DNA of 64,000 nucleotides, taken from Terriglobia bacterium (GTDB lineage Bacteria > Acidobacteriota > Terriglobia > Terriglobales > Acidobacteriaceae). The DNA is taken from NCBI GenBank assembly GCA_020073395.1, contig JAIQFF010000007.1:1-64000 (forward strand), in the 5' to 3' direction. The notes beneath the pieces were generated by a model. That model saw nothing but the letters and a program-made list of their open reading frames with translations, ran no database searches and had not been told where the DNA came from. Both the position numbers and the translations under genes were made by a program. Below, one piece after another: positions 36,820 through 57,379 of the stretch (the first letter of the stretch is position 1; every line of letters starts with the position of its first letter).

Positions 36820-36953
36820 TTAGTTCCGGAACGGTGACAACAGTACCCTTGTCCGATGCAAACTTCAACGTCGCGACCACCGTCGCCGACATAGATGTTT
36901 TCAGCTTTTCGGGGGACTCTAAGGTGTCTCGCCTGGAAACTGGAGACCAGAGA

Positions 36954-39182
36954 CTAGAAACCGCCCTTCGCCGGCTTCCCTTCCAGCATGGCGTAGATTG
37001 CGGGGTTAGTGCATACCTCGTAGTACGGGCGCTCGGTCCAGTGCTGCAGCGAAAATTTTTGCGGATCGATTTGAGCAACCCGGCTGGAGCGGACCAGGAT
37101 TTTCTTGAAAATCTCGTTGCCCACCGGCACCAGGCCACGGTGCAACTGGAAGCTTTCGCTTCCCCACAACTTGGGCAGCTCCAATGGGCAGGGCTCGAGC
37201 GAAATTTCCTGCTGTAACCGTTGAAAAGCGGCTTCGCTCAGGCGGATTCCGTTCAGGTTGTATTTCAGGATGAAGTCTTCCGGACTTTCTCCGGCGTCGG
37301 CATCTTTAACGGTCTGGAAGGCATAGACATTGAACGGGCCGTCCACGGCGGCGATGGCCTTGCGCACGCGTTTGCTGCACGAGGACAGCCGGTCGCTCTC
37401 GTTCAATGCATCTGAAATCATGATCTGCTGTTCGCCATCCAGCAGGTACATGGGGGCCGAATCTTGGAACGAAATGCCGGTCCCCAGCTCCAATGCGGGG
37501 AGTCCGGCTCGCTCCAGAAGATGGTTGTAGCCGCGCACGATGTCGATGATCTCCCGCGCCAGCACGCACGCCCGGCTGACCGCGAGCGGGGCCTCGCCTT
37601 CATGCTCCAGCAGGGCGACGATGATAGCGTCGCCTTCGACAAACACTTTGCGGGCGCCGTACTTGGCCAGCAGCTTGTTGACCGGATCGTAAAAATTAAG
37701 GCTGAAGTAGGAGGCCGGGTTCATGCCCTGCTCCAGCAGCGATCGCGTCAGCCGCGATGAGTCCCGGATGTCGGCCTTCAGAATTACGTGGCGCAGTACT
37801 TTGTCCTCTGTCGGCTTCTGTTCTTCCGGCAGCAGGAACTCATACAGGGTGCCGTTCATGGCCGAGAGTTCCCGCAGCTTCCAGTTGCCGATAAGGTTTC
37901 CGCTATCCAGCGCGGAATTCAGCGCCTCTAGGCGTCGCAGGTCGCGGTGATAACGCAGAAAGTCGCGCAAGAAACGTGCCGCCATTTTGGCCCGTTCCGC
38001 TCCACGGCAGCCGGCCACGCGGGCTGCCGCCGAGTTCAGGCTCTGCACGGAAAGTTTACCGTGCTCCTGGATCAGCTTCTCCACCCGGTCGCGTTCTTCG
38101 CGTGAGATCAGAGCGTTTTTCAATTGCTGCGCGTTGATGCGGGGCGAGTACTCCGCGAGGAGCGGCACGGTTTCGTAGGACGCGATCACGTAGTCCATGA
38201 GCTTTTCGCGCTCCAGCATTTCGACCCAGGCTTCCAGTCGCGCTTTCTGACTGCGTCCCTCGTGAGTGGCCTCGTCAGGCTGGCCCGAGCCTACGAGTTC
38301 CTGGGCGTTCTCCGGAACATTCAGCCAGCCGTCAACCACGGCTTCATCCTCGGCTGTCGAACCCAGCTTGAGGGAAAGCAGGAAATCACGGGCGATCCGG
38401 CGTACGTTGGAAAATCGGTCGGGATCGCGGTCAAAGTTCCCCAGCATCACGTAATGCTCGGCGTTCAGGTAGGTGTCACAACCGTCTTCCGTGAAGATCA
38501 GCGGGTTCAGAAAGAGTTTGTACTCCGCCTCGCTGCGATTGCCGAACAGCGACCGGCGCATGCGGGCCAGGGTTTCTTTTTCAATCTCGCGCAGGATGCG
38601 AAACAGCTCCTGCCCGGTCTTGCGCAGGATGATCTTCTTGGCCACCTGAAAGCCAGCAACGCGCTCGCGATACTCCAGCGCCTTCTGCTGGCGCACGCCT
38701 TCGTAACTCTTGAGCATCATGCGGCCGCGTTCCAGCATTTGCGCGAATTGCGAGTTCAACTCGACGCGCAGGAATTTGACGATCGCCGCCCGCGCCAGCA
38801 TGTCGAGGGAAAGATTCTCCGCCGCCTTGGCGCGATTCAGTACCGACACGTGCAGGTCAGCCAGAAGAGGCTTGAGTTCGGACCCGCTCGCTTTGGCGGG
38901 CGCCTTCGCCAAAGGAGTCGATCCTATAAAGTGGTTGCCACCCGCCCGCTCCGTCTTCTCGGCCGCCAGCAGTCCTTCCATGTCGCCATGGCGGACGATG
39001 AGGCGCGCGATCTGCAGCCGCGCCTGTTCCACAAACCGGGGGCTGAGATGCACGTCATGCCGGAGGTTGTCCACTCCCAGCTGCAAACCTTCCAGGGTAA
39101 GTTTCGGCGTGTAGCTACTGAGCTGCGGAGGCAGCACCTCTTCGGCCGAGCGTCCGAGTCTGAAGATGGGAATGCGTGGCAT
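36954..39182 (-). CDS. Large protein with class III nucleotide cyclase domain
   Basis: A 742-residue soluble protein. Residues ~465-640 form an adenylate/guanylate cyclase domain. The metal-binding Asp residues are Asp471 (LKADIRDSS) and Asp518 (VFVEGDAIIV), and the transition-state pair is Asn594/Arg598 (DALNESDRLSS), so the active site looks intact. The ~460-residue N-terminal part is helical (with RGRMMLKSYEGVRQQKALEYR) and I do not recognise it. The C-terminal ~100 residues are also unknown. The architecture differs from common PAS-, GAF- or HAMP-cyclases. The IS1380 element lies downstream. cAMP versus cGMP specificity cannot be read off. Confidence 0.75.
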   Translation of the reverse strand: MPRIPIFRLGRSAEEVLPPQLSSYTPKLTLEGLQLGVDNLRHDVHLSPRFVEQARLQIARLIVRHGDMEGLLAAEKTERAGGNHFIGSTPLAKAPAKASGSELKPLLADLHVSVLNRAKAAENLSLDMLARAAIVKFLRVELNSQFAQMLERGRMMLKSYEGVRQQKALEYRERVAGFQVAKKIILRKTGQELFRILREIEKETLARMRRSLFGNRSEAEYKLFLNPLIFTEDGCDTYLNAEHYVMLGNFDRDPDRFSNVRRIARDFLLSLKLGSTAEDEAVVDGWLNVPENAQELVGSGQPDEATHEGRSQKARLEAWVEMLEREKLMDYVIASYETVPLLAEYSPRINAQQLKNALISREERDRVEKLIQEHGKLSVQSLNSAAARVAGCRGAERAKMAARFLRDFLRYHRDLRRLEALNSALDSGNLIGNWKLRELSAMNGTLYEFLLPEEQKPTEDKVLRHVILKADIRDSSRLTRSLLEQGMNPASYFSLNFYDPVNKLLAKYGARKVFVEGDAIIVALLEHEGEAPLAVSRACVLAREIIDIVRGYNHLLERAGLPALELGTGISFQDSAPMYLLDGEQQIMISDALNESDRLSSCSKRVRKAIAAVDGPFNVYAFQTVKDADAGESPEDFILKYNLNGIRLSEAAFQRLQQEISLEPCPLELPKLWGSESFQLHRGLVPVGNEIFKKILVRSSRVAQIDPQKFSLQHWTERPYYEVCTNPAIYAMLEGKPAKGGF

Positions 39183-39427
39183 CGTTAGCGATCTTTGTTG
39201 GCTAGGGCTGTCGCGCCGGACCGATCACACCAGCGCATAGTCGCGGGAGGCCGATTCCGGCCTCGTCGCTGCTCGGCTGAGAGGGCGCAGACGCGGTGCA
39301 CCTGCCTCTGACTTTCATTCCTCGCAAATTGCTGATTTTCCTACCTATGCGGGAGCGTAGCACGCGTGCGCAGCCCGGCCAACGTTACCCAAGTTACGTC
39401 TTTCGGGCTCGGTTAGAATTTGTTTCC

Positions 39428-40330
39428 TTAGGGGCGCGTCTCCAGGGGGTGGGCCGCCTTTTCGAAAAACTCGTTCTGGAGCTTGAGGCTTTCCTGGTCC
39501 GCCTTCACGGCGCGAGTGGCTTTTACGATTCCGTCAATCCACGCATTCATTTTGAATTGGCCAAGTTCAGTGGTAGCCAGCGAACCGTCTCCGGAATAGT
39601 GGTTAGGGAAGCGGGCATACCACCAGATTCCGGTGTAAAGGTCATCGGGCAGCTTCTGCCGGCCGAGATCGGCGCCGGACTCACTTCTGGCCCGGTCCTG
39701 ATGCACCAGTTCAGGATGCGCGATCAGCATGCTCGAGGTTTCGGCTTCTCCCGCGTGCCAATCCGGGCCGGTGCTTTTCGCCGCCGGGCCGCCGGACGGC
39801 GTCTCCACCCGCACTAGCACGTAAACCACGTAATCATGGGGCTTTTGCAGTTGGCTCTGGGCGAAGAAGGGCAGCAAGTGCTCATTGCCGCCGTGCCCAT
39901 TCACGATGATGATTTTCTTGCACCCGTTACGGGCCATCTCGTCCGTGGTTTCCTGCAGAAGTTGCAACTGCAGCTCCCGGCTGTAGGCAACGGTGCCGGG
40001 TTCGTGCCGGGCTTCAAAGATCTGGCCAAAGTAATACTCCGGAAAAACCACGGTGTATTCCTGCGCGGCGGCATGCAAGGCGGCGTACCGCACGTCTAGA
40101 AGATCGGTTCCCAGGGGCAGGTGCGGACCATGCTTTTCCAGAATGCCGAAAGGCAGCAGGCAGGTGCCCTGCGATTGCTGAATGGCAGAACGGAAATCGG
40201 CCGCCGTGAGCTCTTCCCAGTGCACTGATAACTTTGACTGCGACCAGCCCAAATGGGTGCAGAAGGCCAGCAATCCAGCCACGATTGCGACTCTGCGAAT
40301 CAAGGTGTTGTGAGATAAAGCTTTGCGCAT
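39428..40330 (-). CDS. Secreted creatininase-family amidohydrolase
   Basis: A 300-residue metal hydrolase of the creatininase (CrnA/MftE-like) fold, preceded by a signal peptide ending LGWSQ. Metal-binding motifs are present: LPFGILEKHGPHLPLGTDLL, then IVNGHGGNEHLLP, with a later WHAGEAETS. Family members cleave cyclic amides or formamide-type bonds. An exported version is unusual, and its substrate is unknown. GGGAG sits seven bases before ATG 40330, which decides the start over the upstream GTG frame. Confidence 0.85.
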   Translation of the reverse strand: MRKALSHNTLIRRVAIVAGLLAFCTHLGWSQSKLSVHWEELTAADFRSAIQQSQGTCLLPFGILEKHGPHLPLGTDLLDVRYAALHAAAQEYTVVFPEYYFGQIFEARHEPGTVAYSRELQLQLLQETTDEMARNGCKKIIIVNGHGGNEHLLPFFAQSQLQKPHDYVVYVLVRVETPSGGPAAKSTGPDWHAGEAETSSMLIAHPELVHQDRARSESGADLGRQKLPDDLYTGIWWYARFPNHYSGDGSLATTELGQFKMNAWIDGIVKATRAVKADQESLKLQNEFFEKAAHPLETRP

Positions 40331-40440
40331 GAGTATTCTCCCGAGGTTGCGCATTTTAGCATTTGGACCTGGTCAGAGTTACTTCGGTCACCGTGCGCCG
40401 GCACCGCGCTCACGGTATGATTTCTGGAACCGTGACCTCA

Positions 40441-41373
40441 ATGAAGAAACTAAAATTTCTAGTTTCGCTGACCACCAACGACAACGATTATCAGATCGAA
40501 CAGGCGGCGTCCGCAGAAGAGGCAGCGCGGCGCCTGGGCGCGGACATCCAGATTATCTACGCGGAAAACGATTCGATCACTCAGAGTCAGCAGATTTTGA
40601 ACGTTATTCAGTCACGGTCCGACTCTCACCCTGACGGAATTATCTTCGAACCAGTGGGCGGGACCGCGCTACCGCAGGTGGCTCGGGCCGCGGTAGCTGC
40701 CGGCATCAGTTGGGTAGTCCTGAATCGAAATGTCGATTACATCGCGGAGATCCGCAAGACCCATCGGGTACCGATTTTTGGAGTCAGTTCGGACCACGAA
40801 GAAATCGGCCGCATCCAGGGACAGCAGTTTGCCGCCCTTCTGCCCAAGGGTGGAACGGTCCTTCACATCCAGGGCCCATCCGAGAGTCTGGCCGCCAAAC
40901 AACGCACCACCGGCATGTACGAGACCAAGCCCGCCGATGTCCAGGTAAAAGTAATGCGGGCACAGTGGACCGAAGCCAGTTCTTACCGGGCGGTCAGTTC
41001 GTGGCTGCGCTTGTCCACCTCCCACCAGAACCGTATCGATCTGATTGCCGGTCAGGACGACGGCATGGCCCTGGGCGCGCGAAAAGCTTTCCAGGAGCTG
41101 CCCGACAACGCAGCCCGGCAACGCTGGCTAAGCTTGCCGTTTATCGGATGCGACGGCCTGCCTAAGACCGGCCAAGCATGGGTGAAGCGCGGACTGCTGA
41201 CCGCGACCATCTTTGCCGGACCAAACACGGGCCAGGCTCTGGAGATGCTGGTCAAGGCCTTGCACACTGGCACCATGCCTCCGGAAAACACTCTGACCAC
41301 ACCGGTTTCCATTCCGGCTTTGGATGCCCTGGCGGCATCCCAGGCCGAGAAGGCGCGTTTGCTGTCGGTTTAG
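40441..41373 (+). CDS. Periplasmic-binding-protein-like sugar-binding protein, no signal peptide
   Basis: A 310-residue type 1 periplasmic-binding-protein fold (Peripla_BP_4-like): KKLKFLVSLTTNDNDYQIEQ, SQSQQILNVIQSR-type helix, PDGIIFEPVGGTALPQVARA, VVLNRN, FGVSSDHEEIGRIQG, and DLIAGQDDGMALGARKA. The fold is complete, but the N-terminus has no signal peptide and no lipobox, and no HTH or kinase domain is fused. Extending upstream to 40363 adds no signal either. No ABC permease or ATPase is nearby. It may be a cytoplasmic ligand sensor or a secreted protein with a misread start. Confidence 0.75.
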   Translation: MKKLKFLVSLTTNDNDYQIEQAASAEEAARRLGADIQIIYAENDSITQSQQILNVIQSRSDSHPDGIIFEPVGGTALPQVARAAVAAGISWVVLNRNVDYIAEIRKTHRVPIFGVSSDHEEIGRIQGQQFAALLPKGGTVLHIQGPSESLAAKQRTTGMYETKPADVQVKVMRAQWTEASSYRAVSSWLRLSTSHQNRIDLIAGQDDGMALGARKAFQELPDNAARQRWLSLPFIGCDGLPKTGQAWVKRGLLTATIFAGPNTGQALEMLVKALHTGTMPPENTLTTPVSIPALDALAASQAEKARLLSV

Positions 41374-41511
41374 TGCGCGTCATTTCTAGCTTCTAGCTGC
41401 TGGCTTCTAGCCCTCGACCGCGAATTCGTCCCGGCACCTCCGCCCTTCTCTTGGTAAATTGGTTGTGATTTCATCCCTGGATTCTTTTCTGATTTCATTC
41501 AAGGAGAAGCA

Positions 41512-41874
41512 ATGCCCACACTGGTCGCGCAGCCCACGCGCATCCGCGCCGCAGGCACAAAGCCCAAACTGATCGATGAATTCATCGGCCGCGTCAATAC
41601 CAAGACGTCGGGAGTAAGCGTGGCCCACATGCGCAGTCCACAGGGCTGGGAAGAGCCCGGGCAAACTCCCGAATTCGATGAGTTCACTATCGTTCTTAAG
41701 GGCACGCTTCGGGTGAAGCACAAGAACGGCGAACTGGACGTCGAGGCGGGCCAGGCTGTCATTGCCCACCGTGGCGAGTGGATCCAGTATTCCACGCCCG
41801 CCGAAGGCGGCGCGGAATACATAGCCGTGTGTCTGCCGGCATTCGCCATGGAAACGGTGCACCGCGACCCGTAA
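41512..41874 (+). CDS. Cupin-domain protein
   Basis: A 120-residue single-domain cupin. Motif 1 is G..W.EP...FDEFTIVLKGTLRVKHKNG and motif 2 ends in GQAVIAHRGEWIQYSTP. The usual metal-binding His residues are partly replaced (no clear HxH in motif 1), so metal binding is uncertain. AAGGAG lies about six bases upstream of ATG. Cupins of this size act as sugar or small-molecule binding/isomerase proteins; no specific role is supported. Confidence 0.75.
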   Translation: MPTLVAQPTRIRAAGTKPKLIDEFIGRVNTKTSGVSVAHMRSPQGWEEPGQTPEFDEFTIVLKGTLRVKHKNGELDVEAGQAVIAHRGEWIQYSTPAEGGAEYIAVCLPAFAMETVHRDP

Positions 41875-41970
41875 ATCGCGGCATCAAGAAAAAAGTATGT
41901 CATCCTGAGCGGAGCCGAAGGATCCCTAGCAGCGCCGCAGTCGGCAACTGGGAACGGGTACCATTCACGA

Positions 41971-43974
41971 ATGCCAGCATATTACGCCCGCCATGTCGGT
42001 GAGTTTCTGAGCGAGTCAGATACTTCTATTTTGGGTGTGCTCGCTCAGGCCAACTCGGAAGCTAAGTTTTTACAACTCGAGTCCGCAGCTATCGAAGCAT
42101 GGCGAAGTCAATTTGACATTTTGCGTGGTACGCTCTCGACAATTACGGAGTCGGTCTCTGGATCGTGGGGTTGGGGTCTGTTGCTGGAGTTCCCCATCCC
42201 TAGACGGCAGCGTCGAATAGATCTTGTGCTCTTAGCAGGCGACGTGGTCTTTGTCATTGAATTCAAGACAGCCAAGCCAGACAAGGCTGCCTTGAGGCAA
42301 GTAGAAGATTACGCTCTCGATTTGGCGGACTTCCACGCTCCTAGCCGTACTGCCGTCTTGGTTCCAATCCTGGTCGCCCCTGGTGCCTCGACTCAAAGTG
42401 AGTCAGGCCCAGGCAGCGGCTCGGGCGTGAAGAGAGTACTGGGGTGTGAACCCTCGAACCTAGCCGACATGTTGGCGCATAATTTCTCTCTCTACACCTC
42501 AGGACAATCCACTCAGATTGAACTGAATTCTTGGAATGGTGGAGTCTACCGCCCCGTTCCGAGCATTGTTGAGGCGGCAATGGCCATCTTTTCAGGAATG
42601 GAGGTAAGGGAGATCGCGCATGCCCACGCCGATGCTCACAACCTCACCTCAACAGTTGACGCGATATTCGACGCAATCGCGAAAACGAAACGCGACGGTC
42701 GTAAGTCAATTTGCTTCATAACAGGAGTTCCAGGGTCCGGAAAGAGCTTGGCTGGCCTTCGCGCGGTGCATGATTCTCGAATCAAAGAAGAACTCGGCAC
42801 TGATCCCAATTTCTTATCAGGAAATGGCCCATTGGTAAAGGTTCTGCGGGAGGCGTTAGTCCGGGATTTTGTCCGACGTAAGAAACAAAGCAAGTATAAG
42901 GCGCGTCGCGAAGTGGAAACCCTCATCCAGAATATTCATGTGTTCGCCAGGTACTACTGGGAAGAGAGTCCGACTAGTCAGCCACACGAGAAGATTATCG
43001 TCTTCGACGAGGCGCAACGTGCGTGGAGTGCTAAGAAGAATAAGAGAAAATTTGGACGAGATATCTCAGAGCCTTCGATGATCTTGAAAATCATGGACCG
43101 GCACCCAGATTGAGCGGTGGTCGTGGCGCTGGTCGGAGGTGGACAAGAAATCCACGATGGAGAGGCTGGCCTTGCCGAGTGGGGACGGACTCTCTCGGAG
43201 AATTTTCGGCATTGGCGTATTTTTGCGTCACCTGAAGCACTAGAGGGAGGGCCATCTGTTGCCGGCTCCAGACTGTTTGAATGTGACACGCGAGTCGGTC
43301 TTGAAATACTCCCGACCTCTGTGTTGCATCTGAAGATTTCCACTCGCTCTTACCGGGCAGTTGTGATCACGGAATGGTCTAACGAGCTCCTCAGGGGAAA
43401 CATTAGTGGAGCATTGAAGGCACTTGCTGAGGTAGAGCATTTTCCGGTCGTTGTCACGCGCGACTTGGCAAAAGCCAAGGAGTGGCTGCATAACCAAACA
43501 CGCGGAATGGCTCGATGCGGGCTAGTCGCGAGTTCTGGGGCTGCAAGGTTGCGAGCATACGGGTTCGAGACTTCGACTGGCTTTCATCGGGACTATCCGT
43601 ATGAGTATTGGTTCCTGAATGGTCCGGAGGATGTCCGATCATCATTCCAGCTTGAGGTAGTGGCAACCGAATTCGAGATTCAAGGACTTGAGTTGGACTG
43701 GGTAGGGCTGTGCTGGGGCGGAGATTTGGAATGGGCCTTACGCTCGGGAAGCTGGAACACCAGACGATTCGTGGGTACGAACTGGAATTCAGTTAAGAAT
43801 CCATTGAATCGTGAGTACCTAATCAATTCTTACCGCGTTCTCCTCACTCGGGCTCGACAAGGGATGGTAATTTGGGTACCGCGAGGAAACGATAAAGACC
43901 CGACGCTCGACCCAACGAGTCTGGATGTCACTGCCAATGTCCTGCTTGAGAGCGGCCTGAAGAACCTGGAGTAA
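41971..43974 (+). pseudogene. PD-(D/E)XK nuclease-DUF2075 helicase gene interrupted by in-frame TGA
   Basis: A 668-codon gene in one frame with a single TGA at codon 381 (43111-43113). The N-terminal ~120 residues match a PD-(D/E)XK nuclease: Asp84 (RRIDLVLLAG), Glu97 and Lys99 (FVIEFKTAKP), Gln110. A DUF2075/Schlafen-like P-loop domain follows, with Walker A ITGVPGSGKS (250-259) and DEAQ (346-349). After the stop, AVVVALVGGGQEIHDGEAGL and the C-terminal VLLTRARQGMVIWVPRG motif continue the family. TGA replaces what is Trp-like in context (HPD-x-AVVV). Low GC and isolation suggest transfer. It is probably a decayed defence-type protein, unless sequence error or readthrough applies. Confidence 0.85.
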
Positions 43975-44008
43975 ACGGCGATAGGCACGCGCCCAATCTC
44001 GCTCGCCC

Positions 44009-44557
44009 TCAGCGCTTCGCAGCCGCCTTCTCGAGCAACCCTCGAACCAGATCGAATCGGACCTGCCGGGAGCTTTCGCTGGCCACCGACAAATTTAAGT
44101 AACCGCCATCCACCAGAAAGCATGATGTAGTGAGCAGCGGCTTGCCAAGGGGCTTGCCATCAAATCCCTTCGTCATCTTCATGCTCAGGCATCCCACCTT
44201 TCCAAAGTCTTTGGTGTTGGTTTCGGGAGCCTGCTTGGCTGCGCCTAGCACCATGCGGGCCCCCATCAGACCTTGCGGGATCGATGTCGGCACCGCCCTT
44301 GTTCCCGGCGCTGCGCTCTGCAGCTTGACCGCGAGTCCACCGATGTTCACCGTGCATACGGAAGAATCTCCATCAGTGCCATGCGGATTGCTGACCTTAC
44401 CGCCGTAACTTGCCTCCAGATCCGGGGTCGGCATGAGCTTGCACGCTTTCGCGTTTGGACCATAGTAGGGAGATGATTGTGCTGCCACGGAACGCTGCCC
44501 AGCAACGGCGGCGAGAATGACCGCAAGGAGCGCGGCAGTCGTTTGCCGTCCAATCAT
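44009..44557 (-). CDS. Secreted hypothetical protein
   Basis: A 182-residue protein with a signal peptide ending RSVAAQS. The mature part has three or four cysteines (KACKLMP, SSVCTVN, GCLSMKM, TTSCFLV), likely in disulfides. It has a small alpha/beta domain pattern (GLAVKLQSAAPGTRAVPTSI). No family is recognised. It is preceded by a family B repeat and converges with the broken nuclease-helicase gene. Confidence 0.65.
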   Translation of the reverse strand: MIGRQTTAALLAVILAAVAGQRSVAAQSSPYYGPNAKACKLMPTPDLEASYGGKVSNPHGTDGDSSVCTVNIGGLAVKLQSAAPGTRAVPTSIPQGLMGARMVLGAAKQAPETNTKDFGKVGCLSMKMTKGFDGKPLGKPLLTTSCFLVDGGYLNLSVASESSRQVRFDLVRGLLEKAAAKR

Positions 44558-44829: not shown

Positions 44830-45639
44830 ATGCTTATACGTTTGGGATATGACATTCAATTCGAGATTCCGGCGGCCGTGGCCATGGTCGGGATGTTGCA
44901 CGTGCATCCTTCCCGCGTCCCGGACCTGCGCGAACCAGATGAGGTGAGCATCAGCCCTGAAGTAAAAGTGGAGAGCTACATCGACAGCTACGGCAACCGA
45001 TGTGCGCGATGGTTGGCGCCGGCAGGACCGCTGCGCCTGAGCAGTTCCACTCTTATCGAAGACCCGGGCACGCCCGATGCGGGCGATCCCGATGCGCAGG
45101 AGCATCCGGTGAACGAGCTTCCTCCGGAGATGCTTCGCTATCTGCTCAACAGCCGCTATTGCGAAGTGGACCGGCTATCGAACATCGCGGTTGAATTGTT
45201 CGGCCACCTGAAGCCGGGATGGAGCCGTGTGCAGGCCATTTGCGGCTGGGTAAACTGGAAAGTCGCGTTCGGCTATCAGCATGCGCGTTCATCGAAAACG
45301 GCCCTGGACGTGTTTGCCGAGCGCACCGGAGTCTGCCGTGATTTTCAGCACCTGGCGGTCACCTTCTGCCGCGCCCTCAACATTCCGGCCCGCTACGCCA
45401 CCGGATACCTGGGCGACATCGGTGTTCCCAAAGAGCCCACGCCCATGGATTTCAGCGCCTGGTTCGAAGTCTATCTGCAAAATCGCTGGTGGACGTTTGA
45501 CGCACGTCATACCCAGCCACGCATCGGGCGGGTGTTGATGGCAACGGGCCGGGACGCTTCGGACGTCGCCATCACCACATCTTTCGGGATTGCCAATCTG
45601 ACCGGGTTTTCGGTGGTCACGGAAGAAGTCGCTGAGTGA
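44830..45639 (+). CDS. Transglutaminase-like protein with altered catalytic His
   Basis: A 269-residue cytoplasmic transglutaminase/protease-like protein. An N-terminal beta domain (residues 1-100) is followed by the core with Cys169 (ERTGVCRDFQHLAV) and Asp224 (WWTFDARHTQPRIGRV). The His expected in the DFHAW-type position is Ser209 here (PMDFSAWFEVYL). Whether that removes activity, or is normal in this subfamily, cannot be told from this sequence. Length is typical. A family A repeat follows its stop. Confidence 0.85.
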   Translation: MLIRLGYDIQFEIPAAVAMVGMLHVHPSRVPDLREPDEVSISPEVKVESYIDSYGNRCARWLAPAGPLRLSSSTLIEDPGTPDAGDPDAQEHPVNELPPEMLRYLLNSRYCEVDRLSNIAVELFGHLKPGWSRVQAICGWVNWKVAFGYQHARSSKTALDVFAERTGVCRDFQHLAVTFCRALNIPARYATGYLGDIGVPKEPTPMDFSAWFEVYLQNRWWTFDARHTQPRIGRVLMATGRDASDVAITTSFGIANLTGFSVVTEEVAE

Positions 45640-52793: not shown

Positions 52794-52805
52794 GAGTCCG
52801 AGCCG

Positions 52806-55187
52806 TTAGAACCGCTCGTCGAGCGTGATCTCCTGCACCATGCGATCCAGTAGCTGCTGTGCCTGGGTATGCTTTTCCTGCAGGTCGGAGATTTCTTTGT
52901 TCAGGGTGTTCAGGCGGTCTTCCTGAGAGTCAAGTTGGTGGGTATACCGCTGCAACAGGGCCTTCTCCTCAGCGCTACCTTTTAAGGCCTTCATGTTCTC
53001 GCGCAGGCGGACCTGATCTTTGGTGATGGACTCGACTTCCTGCTGGTGCGATTGGAGCTGCGTGGCAAGGGCGCCAACCTGGTTTTGCTGGTCGAGGACA
53101 CGACGGAAAACGTCCTGCAGTGCCGGCGTCATCCGGCCTTGCTGAGTGAGCAGGACGACCTGATCGTTATTCAGGTTGTTGAGCTGGTAGCTTGTATCCA
53201 GAGGATGATATTCCTCGACTGGCAGCTCCGCCGTTTTCCCCGCTTCTACACTGACGCGAAAACGGTAGAACGAAGCGGAAGTCTCCTCCGCTTTCGGCCC
53301 CTCGGCTAATTTCCAGCCCTCCCGGAAGGGATGCTCGATCACGACCTGGCGCGGCAAGGTATCGGCGTTACGGATCGTGTATCTGAGAATGTCGCGCTCT
53401 TCTTTGGTCAGGACCATGATGCCCTTCGCGATGCGCACGTGGCTCACAGGCTTTTCACTGGACTCCTGGTGGGCTACGACATGCACTGCTGTGTCTGTCG
53501 CGTAGGAGAGCAGGCGCCGTTCCCCGGGATTGACGGTATCGATCAGCCCTTCACCAGCGAAGGTATCGCCCTCAAGAATGTTGAAGGTACCAGAGTCCAA
53601 AGTGAGACCGCTCGAGTTGGTGACCCAGAGCGCGCGCAGGGCCCGCGAAGGTTTCTCGTCATTACTGTCGTCGCTGTCGTTGTCGCTTGCGCTCCAGAGA
53701 CTCACTTTCTCGACATCGATGTGGGACTGCAAAATGGGCACCAGAGCGGACTGATTTTTGCCGATGGTGATCTTCTGCTTGATGTCGTATTCAAACATTT
53801 CACCCACATCTTTGCCTTCGGCCTCGGCCCCCTGCTTGCGCATCGCGCTGGACACCATAGACGATTGCGTTTGGATGGTGGCCGGCTCCGCCCTGACTTC
53901 CACCGTCTCGCTCGCCGTACCCAACTGGAGGGTCGCGTGGATTTCATTGGTACGGCCCACTCCCAGGTAAAAGTTAGAAAGCGAATATCTTTGGAAGCCC
54001 GGAGCGTCAACAAATAGCGCAGAGTTGCCGGCGGGAACGTTGTACAGGTGATAGGTGCCACTCGAGTCGGTAACCGCTGTCTGGGAGGACCCGCTCTCCT
54101 CGTTCCGAATAGTGACCCTGGCGCCGGCAACGAAAGCGCCGGATGGGTCCGTGACCGTACCCTGCAGACCGCCTGTGCCTCCGGCGAACGAGGGCGGCGG
54201 GGATGGGCCGGGGACGTTCATGGCGGCCTCGTGGGTTTGCGGCGAGAGCATCATGGACTCGGGCAGAGCCACGACCGGGCGGCGGGCATAATAAGGCTGT
54301 GAGATATCCTGGATGAACGATTGCGGCGCGGCGGCCACGAGTGAAAGTTGAACGTCTTTCCAGTCGTCGCCAACCGTGTTGTCCACGATGGCCCAGCCTT
54401 GCAGCAGCGGCTTTTCGCCGGGTTTGTCCGGCAGAATGATGCGGTAGGTACTCTTCCAGATAGGAACTTCGCTGATGTAGCTGACAAAAATATCGCGGTC
54501 GCCCGTGCCCGTAGCCGAGATGGTCATGCGTCGGAGGTCGCGGGCGCGGGAGGAACCGACCAGGTTCAAGTAGCGGCCAATTTCATCGCCCAGATCGCGT
54601 TCCGCGAGCCGCACCGAAGTCCCAGGGCCGAGGTCGAAATTTTTCATCTCGCCGGTGTCGGACACGATGGAGAATTCGGTCACGTCGTAGAAGTCACCCT
54701 TTCCGTTGGCTTTCCGCTCTTTTTCGACGCTCAGAAGGCGGCCGGTGGTTGTCGCGGAACCACTGTGCACTTCCACGCGGGCGCCGCGCAGGGCCATCAG
54801 GAAGTCGGCGCGAGTCACTTGTTCTCCAAAGGGCAAGCGCAGTGCCTTCAGCCGTTCATCAAGCGGCGCGGTGGAGTTGTAGCGCACTCCGGAGATGCGA
54901 CCTTCGCCCAGGTCCACCACGGTCAGGGACTTGAGCACATCGTTAAGCTGGCCGGTGGTGAAATCGATGGCGAGGTCCTGGTTCCCGCGTACGCGAGCCG
55001 TGTGCTCGAAATATCCGATGCCATTCTTGTAGAGCACAACCCGCTTTACTGGGAGTCGCGAGGAGGAATCGTTGGCCGCCGTGGCTGTGGGTTGCGATTT
55101 TTCAAGAACACTCCCAGGTTTGTTCTGGGCGCCAGCGACGGTCGCAAACAAAAGAACAACCACAACTTTGAGGCAAACCCCGAGCAT
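52806..55187 (-). CDS. DUF4139 protein with inserted carboxypeptidase-regulatory domain
   Basis: A 793-residue exported protein with a signal peptide ending VAGAQ. The N-terminal half has DUF4139/DUF4140-like features (VKRVVLYKNGIGYFEHTARV, VPIWKSTYRIILP, GWAIVDNTVGDDWKDVQLSL). At ~340-435 a carboxypeptidase-regulatory-like domain is inserted (GLQGTVTDPSGAFVAGARVT; TYHLYNVPAGNSALFVDAPG). DUF4139 then resumes (LWVTNSSGLTLDSGTFNILE), and the C-terminus (~700-785) is a coiled coil. The insert is the kind seen at the N-terminus of acidobacterial TonB-dependent receptors. GGGAGGAG precedes ATG 55187. Function unknown; the family is linked to cell-surface structures. Confidence 0.8.
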   Translation of the reverse strand: MLGVCLKVVVVLLFATVAGAQNKPGSVLEKSQPTATAANDSSSRLPVKRVVLYKNGIGYFEHTARVRGNQDLAIDFTTGQLNDVLKSLTVVDLGEGRISGVRYNSTAPLDERLKALRLPFGEQVTRADFLMALRGARVEVHSGSATTTGRLLSVEKERKANGKGDFYDVTEFSIVSDTGEMKNFDLGPGTSVRLAERDLGDEIGRYLNLVGSSRARDLRRMTISATGTGDRDIFVSYISEVPIWKSTYRIILPDKPGEKPLLQGWAIVDNTVGDDWKDVQLSLVAAAPQSFIQDISQPYYARRPVVALPESMMLSPQTHEAAMNVPGPSPPPSFAGGTGGLQGTVTDPSGAFVAGARVTIRNEESGSSQTAVTDSSGTYHLYNVPAGNSALFVDAPGFQRYSLSNFYLGVGRTNEIHATLQLGTASETVEVRAEPATIQTQSSMVSSAMRKQGAEAEGKDVGEMFEYDIKQKITIGKNQSALVPILQSHIDVEKVSLWSASDNDSDDSNDEKPSRALRALWVTNSSGLTLDSGTFNILEGDTFAGEGLIDTVNPGERRLLSYATDTAVHVVAHQESSEKPVSHVRIAKGIMVLTKEERDILRYTIRNADTLPRQVVIEHPFREGWKLAEGPKAEETSASFYRFRVSVEAGKTAELPVEEYHPLDTSYQLNNLNNDQVVLLTQQGRMTPALQDVFRRVLDQQNQVGALATQLQSHQQEVESITKDQVRLRENMKALKGSAEEKALLQRYTHQLDSQEDRLNTLNKEISDLQEKHTQAQQLLDRMVQEITLDERF

Positions 55188-55429
55188 GAACTCCTCCCGC
55201 CTTGAGCGGGAGTTTACGCACCGTGACAACCGGGAGTAAGTACCTAGTTAGTGGCGAAGCAAGAGTTACACAATCTGGGTCGTGATTGTTCTTTCGCCCG
55301 TTCAGGGCTTCGTCATTTGCCACCCTCACCCGGGGCTTACGCCCAGGGCTGCAATGTTGCGCCGCTGCGCGGCTATGCACAGTGACGTCGATCTCATTCT
55401 AGGGAAGCCTTGAGTTGCGGGACAGACGC

Positions 55430-57379
55430 TTACAGCCCGGCCGCGATCTTCTTTTTTTCTGCTGTCCCAGTGTCATCGGCGGCTTTTTCCGGTCGCCCAA
55501 AGTCTCGCAGCGAGAGTTCGAGACCGCCGTACTCGGGGTGATCGTTATTGTCGATGGTGAATGCGATGTCGAGAGCGTCGCCGGAGAGCAGGGCGGCCTG
55601 CTGACAGCGTTCCGCCATGTGCCATCCCAGGGCATCGAAGGTAATGGCCCTGCGCCACTTGCTGTCGGTCGCTTGCCGATTGTCGGTGGCTTGGCGTACG
55701 TCACTGCGGCGCAACCCGGCTGAATCAGGATCACAACGCGGAGTTGTAAGGATCGCCACATCCGGCCCGCCCGGGCTGCGGGACAACAACCCAACTGCCG
55801 GCGCCAGCTTCAGCTTCACGTGCTTGTCTTTAATGATGCGCGGAGACGCCATGAGACGGACGGCGCGGGCGGTGAAGACAGGCTGGGGATTGCCCACGCC
55901 AAAAGGCTCCAGCCTCTGCAGCAGGTTGAAGAATTCGGGTGTCACCCGGTCAAGCGACAGCTCGGCATCAAAGTTGAGCGAGGGGTCGAAGTCAGCAAGA
56001 GTCAGGCAGGTATGCGCGTAGTCGTCGAGGCGCGCCCGAAGTTCAGGAAGATTTGCGGCAGGCAGCGAGAAGCCAACGGCGTGGGCGTGTCCACCGAAGC
56101 GCGTGAACAGGCCGGCACACGACTCGAGCGCATTCAGCAGGTGAAACGCGCGGATGGAACGGCCGGAGCCGTGGGCTTCCTCTCCGTTGCGCGAAATCAC
56201 CAGCGCAGGGCGTCCGTAACGCTCCACCACCCGCGTGGCGGTAATACCGATTACACCGCGGTGCCAGCCTTCGCCGTCGATCACAATGCAGAAAGCATCG
56301 CGCAGTCTCGGCTGTTCTTCAAAATTTGATGTGATGGATTGCAGGATGCGGCGCTCCTCCTCCTGGCGGTCACCGTTGAGCTGATCGAGCTTCTGGGCAA
56401 TCTCGCGGGCCCGGACCGGATCCTTCACGCTGAAGAGTTCGATGACATCGCAGGCCACATCCATGCGGCCTGCTGCATTGATACGCGGAGCGATGCGGAA
56501 TGCGACTTCTCCGGAAGTGAGGGTCCGGCCCGGGCTGAGTTGCGCGACTTCGAGCAAGGCTTTGAGGCCGGGGTTCACCGGCGAACGCAGACCTTCCAAT
56601 CCCAGCTTGGCGAAAACCCGGTTTTCTCCCGTGAGCGGCACTGCGTCCGCGATGGTCGCGATCGCGACCACTTTCATGAACGATTTCAACAGGCGGGTCC
56701 GATCGCCCTCGGGGATTCTGCGTTCGATCAGACCCTGGGCCAATTTGAAAGCGACGCCCGCGCCGCACAGTTCCTTGCACGGGTACCCACAGCCTGACTG
56801 ATTGGGATTAACCACAGCCAGCGCAGCCGGAACACCCTGCGGGCCCGGAAGGTGATGGTCGGTGACAATCAGGTCCACGCCCAGCCGTCGGGCGGTCTCG
56901 GCGGGAGCGAAGGCGCGGATACCCATGTCCACGCTGATGATGAGTTTGATTCCGGCGGCCGCGGCCCGCTCGATGACGTCGTCGCGCATGTCGTAGCCGT
57001 CGCGGATGCGGTGCGGAACGTGAAATTCAGCCGCGCCGCCGCAGAGTTCGATCGCGGTCTTGAGGACCACGATGGCGGTGGTGCCATCCACGTCATAGTC
57101 GCCGTAGATCAGGATCGGGTCCTTGTTCTCGATGGCGGCTTCGATCCGATCGACCGCAGCCTTCATCCCAGCCATCAGGTACGGCGGATGCAAGTGGGAA
57201 AGCGCGGGAGTCAGGAAGCGCTCGGCAGCTTCGGCTTCGGTTATGCCTCGCATGACCAGGAGGCGAGCGAGGGTCGTGGCGATTTGCGGATCGTTCAGGC
57301 GAAGGGATGGTTGTGAACTCAATTTCGCCGCGAGATGTTCAACGGCATTGGAGTCGGCGGTTTTAAGATCCCAGCGCAT
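55430..57379 (-). CDS. recJ: Single-stranded-DNA-specific exonuclease RecJ
   Basis: A 649-residue DHH-family 5'-3' exonuclease for recombination and mismatch repair. Motifs: YGDYDVDGTTAIVVLKTA (motif I), then IVTDHHLPG (DHH), NAAGRMD, and the DHHA1 motif GGHAHAVGFSL. A C-terminal OB-fold follows (FNLLQRLEPFGVGNPQPVFT). The size is typical for RecJ (about 570-730). A ~60-residue Arg/Asp-rich stretch (SAGLRRSDVRQATDNRQATD) near residue 570 may be a lineage insert. It starts at ATG 57379. Confidence 0.95.
   Translation of the reverse strand: MRWDLKTADSNAVEHLAAKLSSQPSLRLNDPQIATTLARLLVMRGITEAEAAERFLTPALSHLHPPYLMAGMKAAVDRIEAAIENKDPILIYGDYDVDGTTAIVVLKTAIELCGGAAEFHVPHRIRDGYDMRDDVIERAAAAGIKLIISVDMGIRAFAPAETARRLGVDLIVTDHHLPGPQGVPAALAVVNPNQSGCGYPCKELCGAGVAFKLAQGLIERRIPEGDRTRLLKSFMKVVAIATIADAVPLTGENRVFAKLGLEGLRSPVNPGLKALLEVAQLSPGRTLTSGEVAFRIAPRINAAGRMDVACDVIELFSVKDPVRAREIAQKLDQLNGDRQEEERRILQSITSNFEEQPRLRDAFCIVIDGEGWHRGVIGITATRVVERYGRPALVISRNGEEAHGSGRSIRAFHLLNALESCAGLFTRFGGHAHAVGFSLPAANLPELRARLDDYAHTCLTLADFDPSLNFDAELSLDRVTPEFFNLLQRLEPFGVGNPQPVFTARAVRLMASPRIIKDKHVKLKLAPAVGLLSRSPGGPDVAILTTPRCDPDSAGLRRSDVRQATDNRQATDSKWRRAITFDALGWHMAERCQQAALLSGDALDIAFTIDNNDHPEYGGLELSLRDFGRPEKAADDTGTAEKKKIAAGL

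Follow-up and report, generated by a model that had tools for sequence, protein, structure and literature searches.

A 667-codon gene at positions 41971-43974 of the window (the whole 64,000-nucleotide stretch of DNA analyzed here) is interrupted once, by an in-frame TGA at codon 381 (43111-43113). Its history is probably that of a stand-alone PDC-S41 gene, recently acquired and then recently inactivated by one nonsense change at the codon of an invariant tryptophan, Trp381. The gene starts at ATG 41971 (MPAYY...), in agreement with the starts of homologues at loci L005, L006 and L002, and ends with TAA at 43974. Two ORFs lie in the same frame, 41971-43113 (380 amino acids) and 43117-43974 (285 amino acids), separated only by the TGA and one more codon, after which comes a GTG. 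The search for a second in-frame lesion that was proposed with the original prediction has been made: there is no additional stop or frameshift across the gene's 2,001 bp. This is the genome's only PDC-S41 copy. The parts of the gene are:

41971..43110, + strand: codons 1-380, upstream of the stop; they encode the nuclease region of PD-(D/E)XK type (residues D84, E97, K99 and Q110), Walker A (252-259) and Walker B DEAQ (346-349)
43111..43113, + strand: in-frame TGA, codon 381; Trp in 17 of 17 aligned homologues; immediately 5' of strand 382-387, which leads to the GGGQE motif
43114..43974, + strand: codons 382-667 plus the terminal TAA, downstream of the stop; they encode the other helicase motifs GGGQE, QGLELD and YRVLLTRARQG

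Read through the stop, the protein matches the PADLOC model PDC-S41 (PDLC05014) over positions 3-653 of 657 (746 bits, E 6e-225). Both halves continue this one profile (the 5' ORF at positions 3-375 with 380 bits, the 3' ORF at 378-653 with 338 bits), just as had been predicted for a PD-(D/E)XK-helicase gene split by a single in-frame TGA. The Pfam profile SLFN-g3_helicase (PF09848, formerly DUF2075) is covered by the read-through protein from 1 to 353 of 354 (254.7 bits against a gathering cut-off of 24, E 2e-75), with 1-113 in the 5' ORF and 117-353 in the 3' ORF. By profile, the gene is a full-length PDC-S41 member; its frame is broken by the TGA at codon 381. The profiles and the alignment also confirm that the nuclease residues D84/E97/K99/Q110, Walker A and DEAQ lie 5' of the stop and the other helicase motifs 3' of it. 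The N-terminal region has the D...ExK...Q motif of the PD-(D/E)XK superfamily on a modelled alpha/beta core, and its only profile matches are a sub-threshold one to NERD (E 0.02) and one to NucS (E 0.05). Apart from PDC-S41, the PADLOC models matched are just Nhi and AbiO, weakly and at Walker A; searching the PDB by sequence gave no close relative.

PDC-S41 is an uncharacterised computational phage-defence candidate; literature searches found no paper on it and nothing on DUF2075 together with defence. It is a stand-alone, single-gene unit without a conserved partner within 1.5 kb: clustering of the ORFs in the 1.5-kb flanks of about 45 loci yielded only in-gene shadow ORFs. The window's gene matches the family model at full length and is likewise without a conserved nearby partner, but differs in being interrupted at codon 381. 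It shares its C-terminal helicase domain with the Schlafen group 3 helicases (human SLFN11 and SLFN14). In contrast to these, it is a bacterial single-gene unit, with an N-terminal PD-(D/E)XK-like region that may or may not be akin to the Schlafen core nuclease. Gabija and Hna are helicase-nuclease defence systems, which the window's gene resembles in coupling a helicase-type motor with a nuclease, although its helicase is of a different family.

In an AlphaFold2 model made from ten sequences (mean pLDDT 77.5, pTM 0.76), the D-ExK-Q signature sits in an alpha/beta region at the N terminus, and the remainder forms an SF1 helicase with two RecA domains. Modelled strands 85-89, 92-98 and 129-135 and helix 105-121 are consistent with a PD-(D/E)XK core. 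Foldseek places human SLFN11 at top rank, and VIA-align superimposes the helicase (residues about 196-667) on UvrD (Z 19.3 over 333 residues) and on SLFN11 (Z 17.9 over 283 residues); the fold search was made with the whole model, and matches to the helicase domain fill its list. In the model the stop falls inside RecA domain 1, between Walker B and motif III and just before the motif III strand. The truncated product is predicted to retain the nuclease region together with Walker A and Walker B in the first half of RecA domain 1, and to lose everything from motif III onward, including all of RecA2. The TGA at codon 381 would abolish the helicase motor by removing these parts.

The window's protein was aligned with 17 homologues (18 sequences in total) that share 38-46% identity with it. 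Every one of the 17 has Trp at residue 381, which settles the question, raised at the outset, of whether homologues keep Trp at that place. It is likewise invariant in a second alignment that includes more distant copies from viral contigs, and no homologue terminating at codon 381 was found. D84/E97/K99/Q110, Walker A (GVPGSGKS) and DEAQ are all in invariant or nearly invariant columns, the four nuclease residues being conserved at 90% or more. Columns of the 18-sequence alignment that are invariant among homologues are altered in the window's protein at 4 of 53 positions upstream of the stop and at 1 of 53 downstream. With one invariant column changed after the stop, the downstream half is undecayed, and the lesion must therefore have arisen very recently or be an error at one base. 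These were the two alternatives of the original prediction (a recent pseudogene or an erroneous base), and a single lesion at a conserved Trp with no downstream decay bears them out.

An error of assembly or consensus at this one base, which would leave the gene intact in the living organism, or a stop that only a minority of strains in a mixed population carry, seems to us unlikely. A lone substitution, unaccompanied by further lesions or by decay downstream, is what such an error would produce, and the base call at the TGA comes from a single draft assembly in 311 contigs with 4.6% contamination. Against this, the coding sequence that the window shares with a congener, about 18.7 kb, contains no comparable internal stop in the window, N-terminal extension regions aside, and real-looking lesions break PDC-S41 in 10 other genomes of the class, including one, G261, that is assembled as a single contig.

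A functional split protein would arise if translation terminated at the TGA and re-initiated at GTG 43117, four bases downstream, with the nuclease and helicase subunits then assembling. The nearness of the GTG to the stop and the entirely open and conserved downstream frame suit such an arrangement, but none of the homologues splits at codon 381, and it has been rejected as highly improbable on that ground. Moreover, the cut, between Walker B and motif III of RecA domain 1, is at no domain border, and the nearest lesion elsewhere, in G261, does not match it, being a frameshift that lies a few codons off. We give even less credence to recoding or reading through of the TGA as an amino acid, with a full-length protein as the outcome. 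The genome does have a tRNA-Sec-like sequence (49.2 bits against a cut-off of 47), but this weak hit means little because the same search finds matches in all 14 control genomes, above the cut-off in five; selenocysteine at residue 381 is rejected because the homologous residue is an invariant Trp (17 of 17) and not Cys.

The preferred reading, acquisition followed by inactivation, also draws on the recipient site. A flank-gene search in 12 relatives led to contig C58 of the congener G001, a genome without a PDC-S41 copy. The two genomes are collinear on the left (window 36952-41876 with C58 14340-19274, 82.6% identity) and on the right (window 44013-44535 with C58 19365-19887, 79%), and between the same two flanking genes the congener has 90 bp where the window has 2,136 bp. 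Finer alignment puts the left junction near 41959, about 11 bp 5' of the start codon, and the right junction near 44010. The features of the site are:

41960..44008, no strand: acquired segment, approximate extent, from the empty site in the congener
41899..41924, + strand: GTCATCCTGAGCGGAGCCGAAGGATC, an intergenic element on the left side of the junction; the congener's empty site has a related one
41512..41874, + strand: flanking gene on the left, for a small cupin protein; conserved in the congener, in synteny
44009..44557, - strand: flanking gene on the right, for a secreted-type protein that matches nothing in Pfam; likewise conserved in the congener, in synteny

Because of the related element in the congener's empty site, GTCATCCTGAGCGGAGCCGAAGGATC is assigned to the recipient site. 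The composition of the gene sets it apart: GC3 is 0.55 in both halves, compared with 0.65-0.78 in the neighbours, and the bin 42001-44000, at 52.9% GC, is the lowest of the window's 2-kb bins. Judged by GC3 and the congener's empty site, the gene appears to be foreign and horizontally acquired. The earlier description of an AT-richer, acquired gene of defence type is upheld by this composition, the empty site and the PDC-S41 match; its further statement that the gene has no core neighbours fails, since the congener has conserved both flanking genes in synteny. The neighbouring genes (cupin, sugar-binding-protein-like, transglutaminase-like and ribosome hibernation factor) indicate that the locus is not a defence island. 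Two other differences between these genomes were seen. A second stretch of the window, 52796-55499, has no nucleotide match at the congener's syntenic place and contains a gene (52806-55229, - strand) whose long protein product includes a carboxypeptidase-regulatory-like insert. The congener's transglutaminase-like gene (L069/L062, G001:C58:20261-21068; window 44830-45639) is matched in two overlapping frames, as if frameshifted.

A match to PDC-S41 at E <= 1e-60 is present in 48 of 399 genomes of the class, and re-reading of these loci found 36 copies full length and open, 11 disrupted and one (G391) split by contig ends. The disrupted copies, in 11 of 47 evaluable genomes with the window's own included, comprise single nonsense changes (G000, G019, G161, G286, G288), frameshifts (G261, with its 5.66-Mb single-contig genome, G328 and G365), truncations (G411, G191) and a remnant (G211). 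The losses look independent, because the disruption sites differ. Apparent stops in G410, G373, G176 and G537 were rejected as normal terminal stops, and G391, G563 and G657 were left out as contig-edge fragments. The best-scoring homologue among relatives (L004:1501-3495, in G019) has one in-frame TAA elsewhere in a gene that is otherwise open.

The control, the HsdR helicase family in the same genome sample, gave no in-frame stop or adjacent split copies among 82 matches. For nonsense and frameshift lesions the difference between PDC-S41 and HsdR has a Fisher p of 2e-4, or 6e-4 without the window's copy, with kinship ignored. Among 16 evaluable copies from outside the class, only one is disrupted (G578, a frameshift). 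UvrB, as a core control, has no stop among the best-scoring matches listed; Nhi, intended as a second defence control, has no matches anywhere and is uninformative. PDC-S41 thus seems to be broken unusually often in this class and not clearly so outside it, an excess that is suggestive only, since it rests on a single control family, related homologues and HsdR fragments that were not re-read. Defence systems are costly, can cause autoimmunity and are often gained and lost, and pseudogenes of restriction-modification and CRISPR systems are known (reviewed in PMC8791490), so that a broken defence gene is in itself unsurprising. Frequent disruption fits a costly immunity that is repeatedly gained and lost. 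More tentative, and in our estimate somewhat doubtful, is the proposal that selection in this class acts with unusual strength to silence PDC-S41, whose copies bear single fresh lesions far more often than the other helicase-type defence gene compared; this would suggest a toxic or self-damaging effector maintained in populations by repeated gain and loss.

An element resembling TATCCTGG lies 5' of PDC-S41 genes at L040, L043, L049, L051, L110, L111, L117 and other loci, in most cases at a distance of 18-46 nt from the start region. At least 7 of its 8 positions match in 22 of 69 upstream regions, compared with 3.2 (maximum 11) in shuffled sequences; the 64-kb window has a single exact TATCCTGG, and 56 kb of G001:C58 has none. 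The element may be a -10 box belonging to a promoter with a short leader. Upstream of the window's own PDC-S41 copy there is no such element, and TACCAT stands in its place. Relatives of PDC-S41 with 27-42% identity are encoded on ten IMG/VR viral contigs (L052-L061), and phages or prophages may therefore carry the family.

The window holds an ordinary case: an acquired defence-candidate gene that was broken recently, or else mis-sequenced. The candidate's function would be that of an anti-phage nuclease-helicase: in the intact protein the helicase would translocate on nucleic acid and the nuclease would cut the same nucleic acid during phage infection. In losing it, this soil-type bacterium may have shed a possibly costly activity, as many of its relatives appear to have done by lesions at other positions. 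The locus offers a clean example of single-gene defence acquisition, recognizable by an empty site and foreign composition, that is followed by loss through one base, and the survey suggests that PDC-S41 may be costly to carry.
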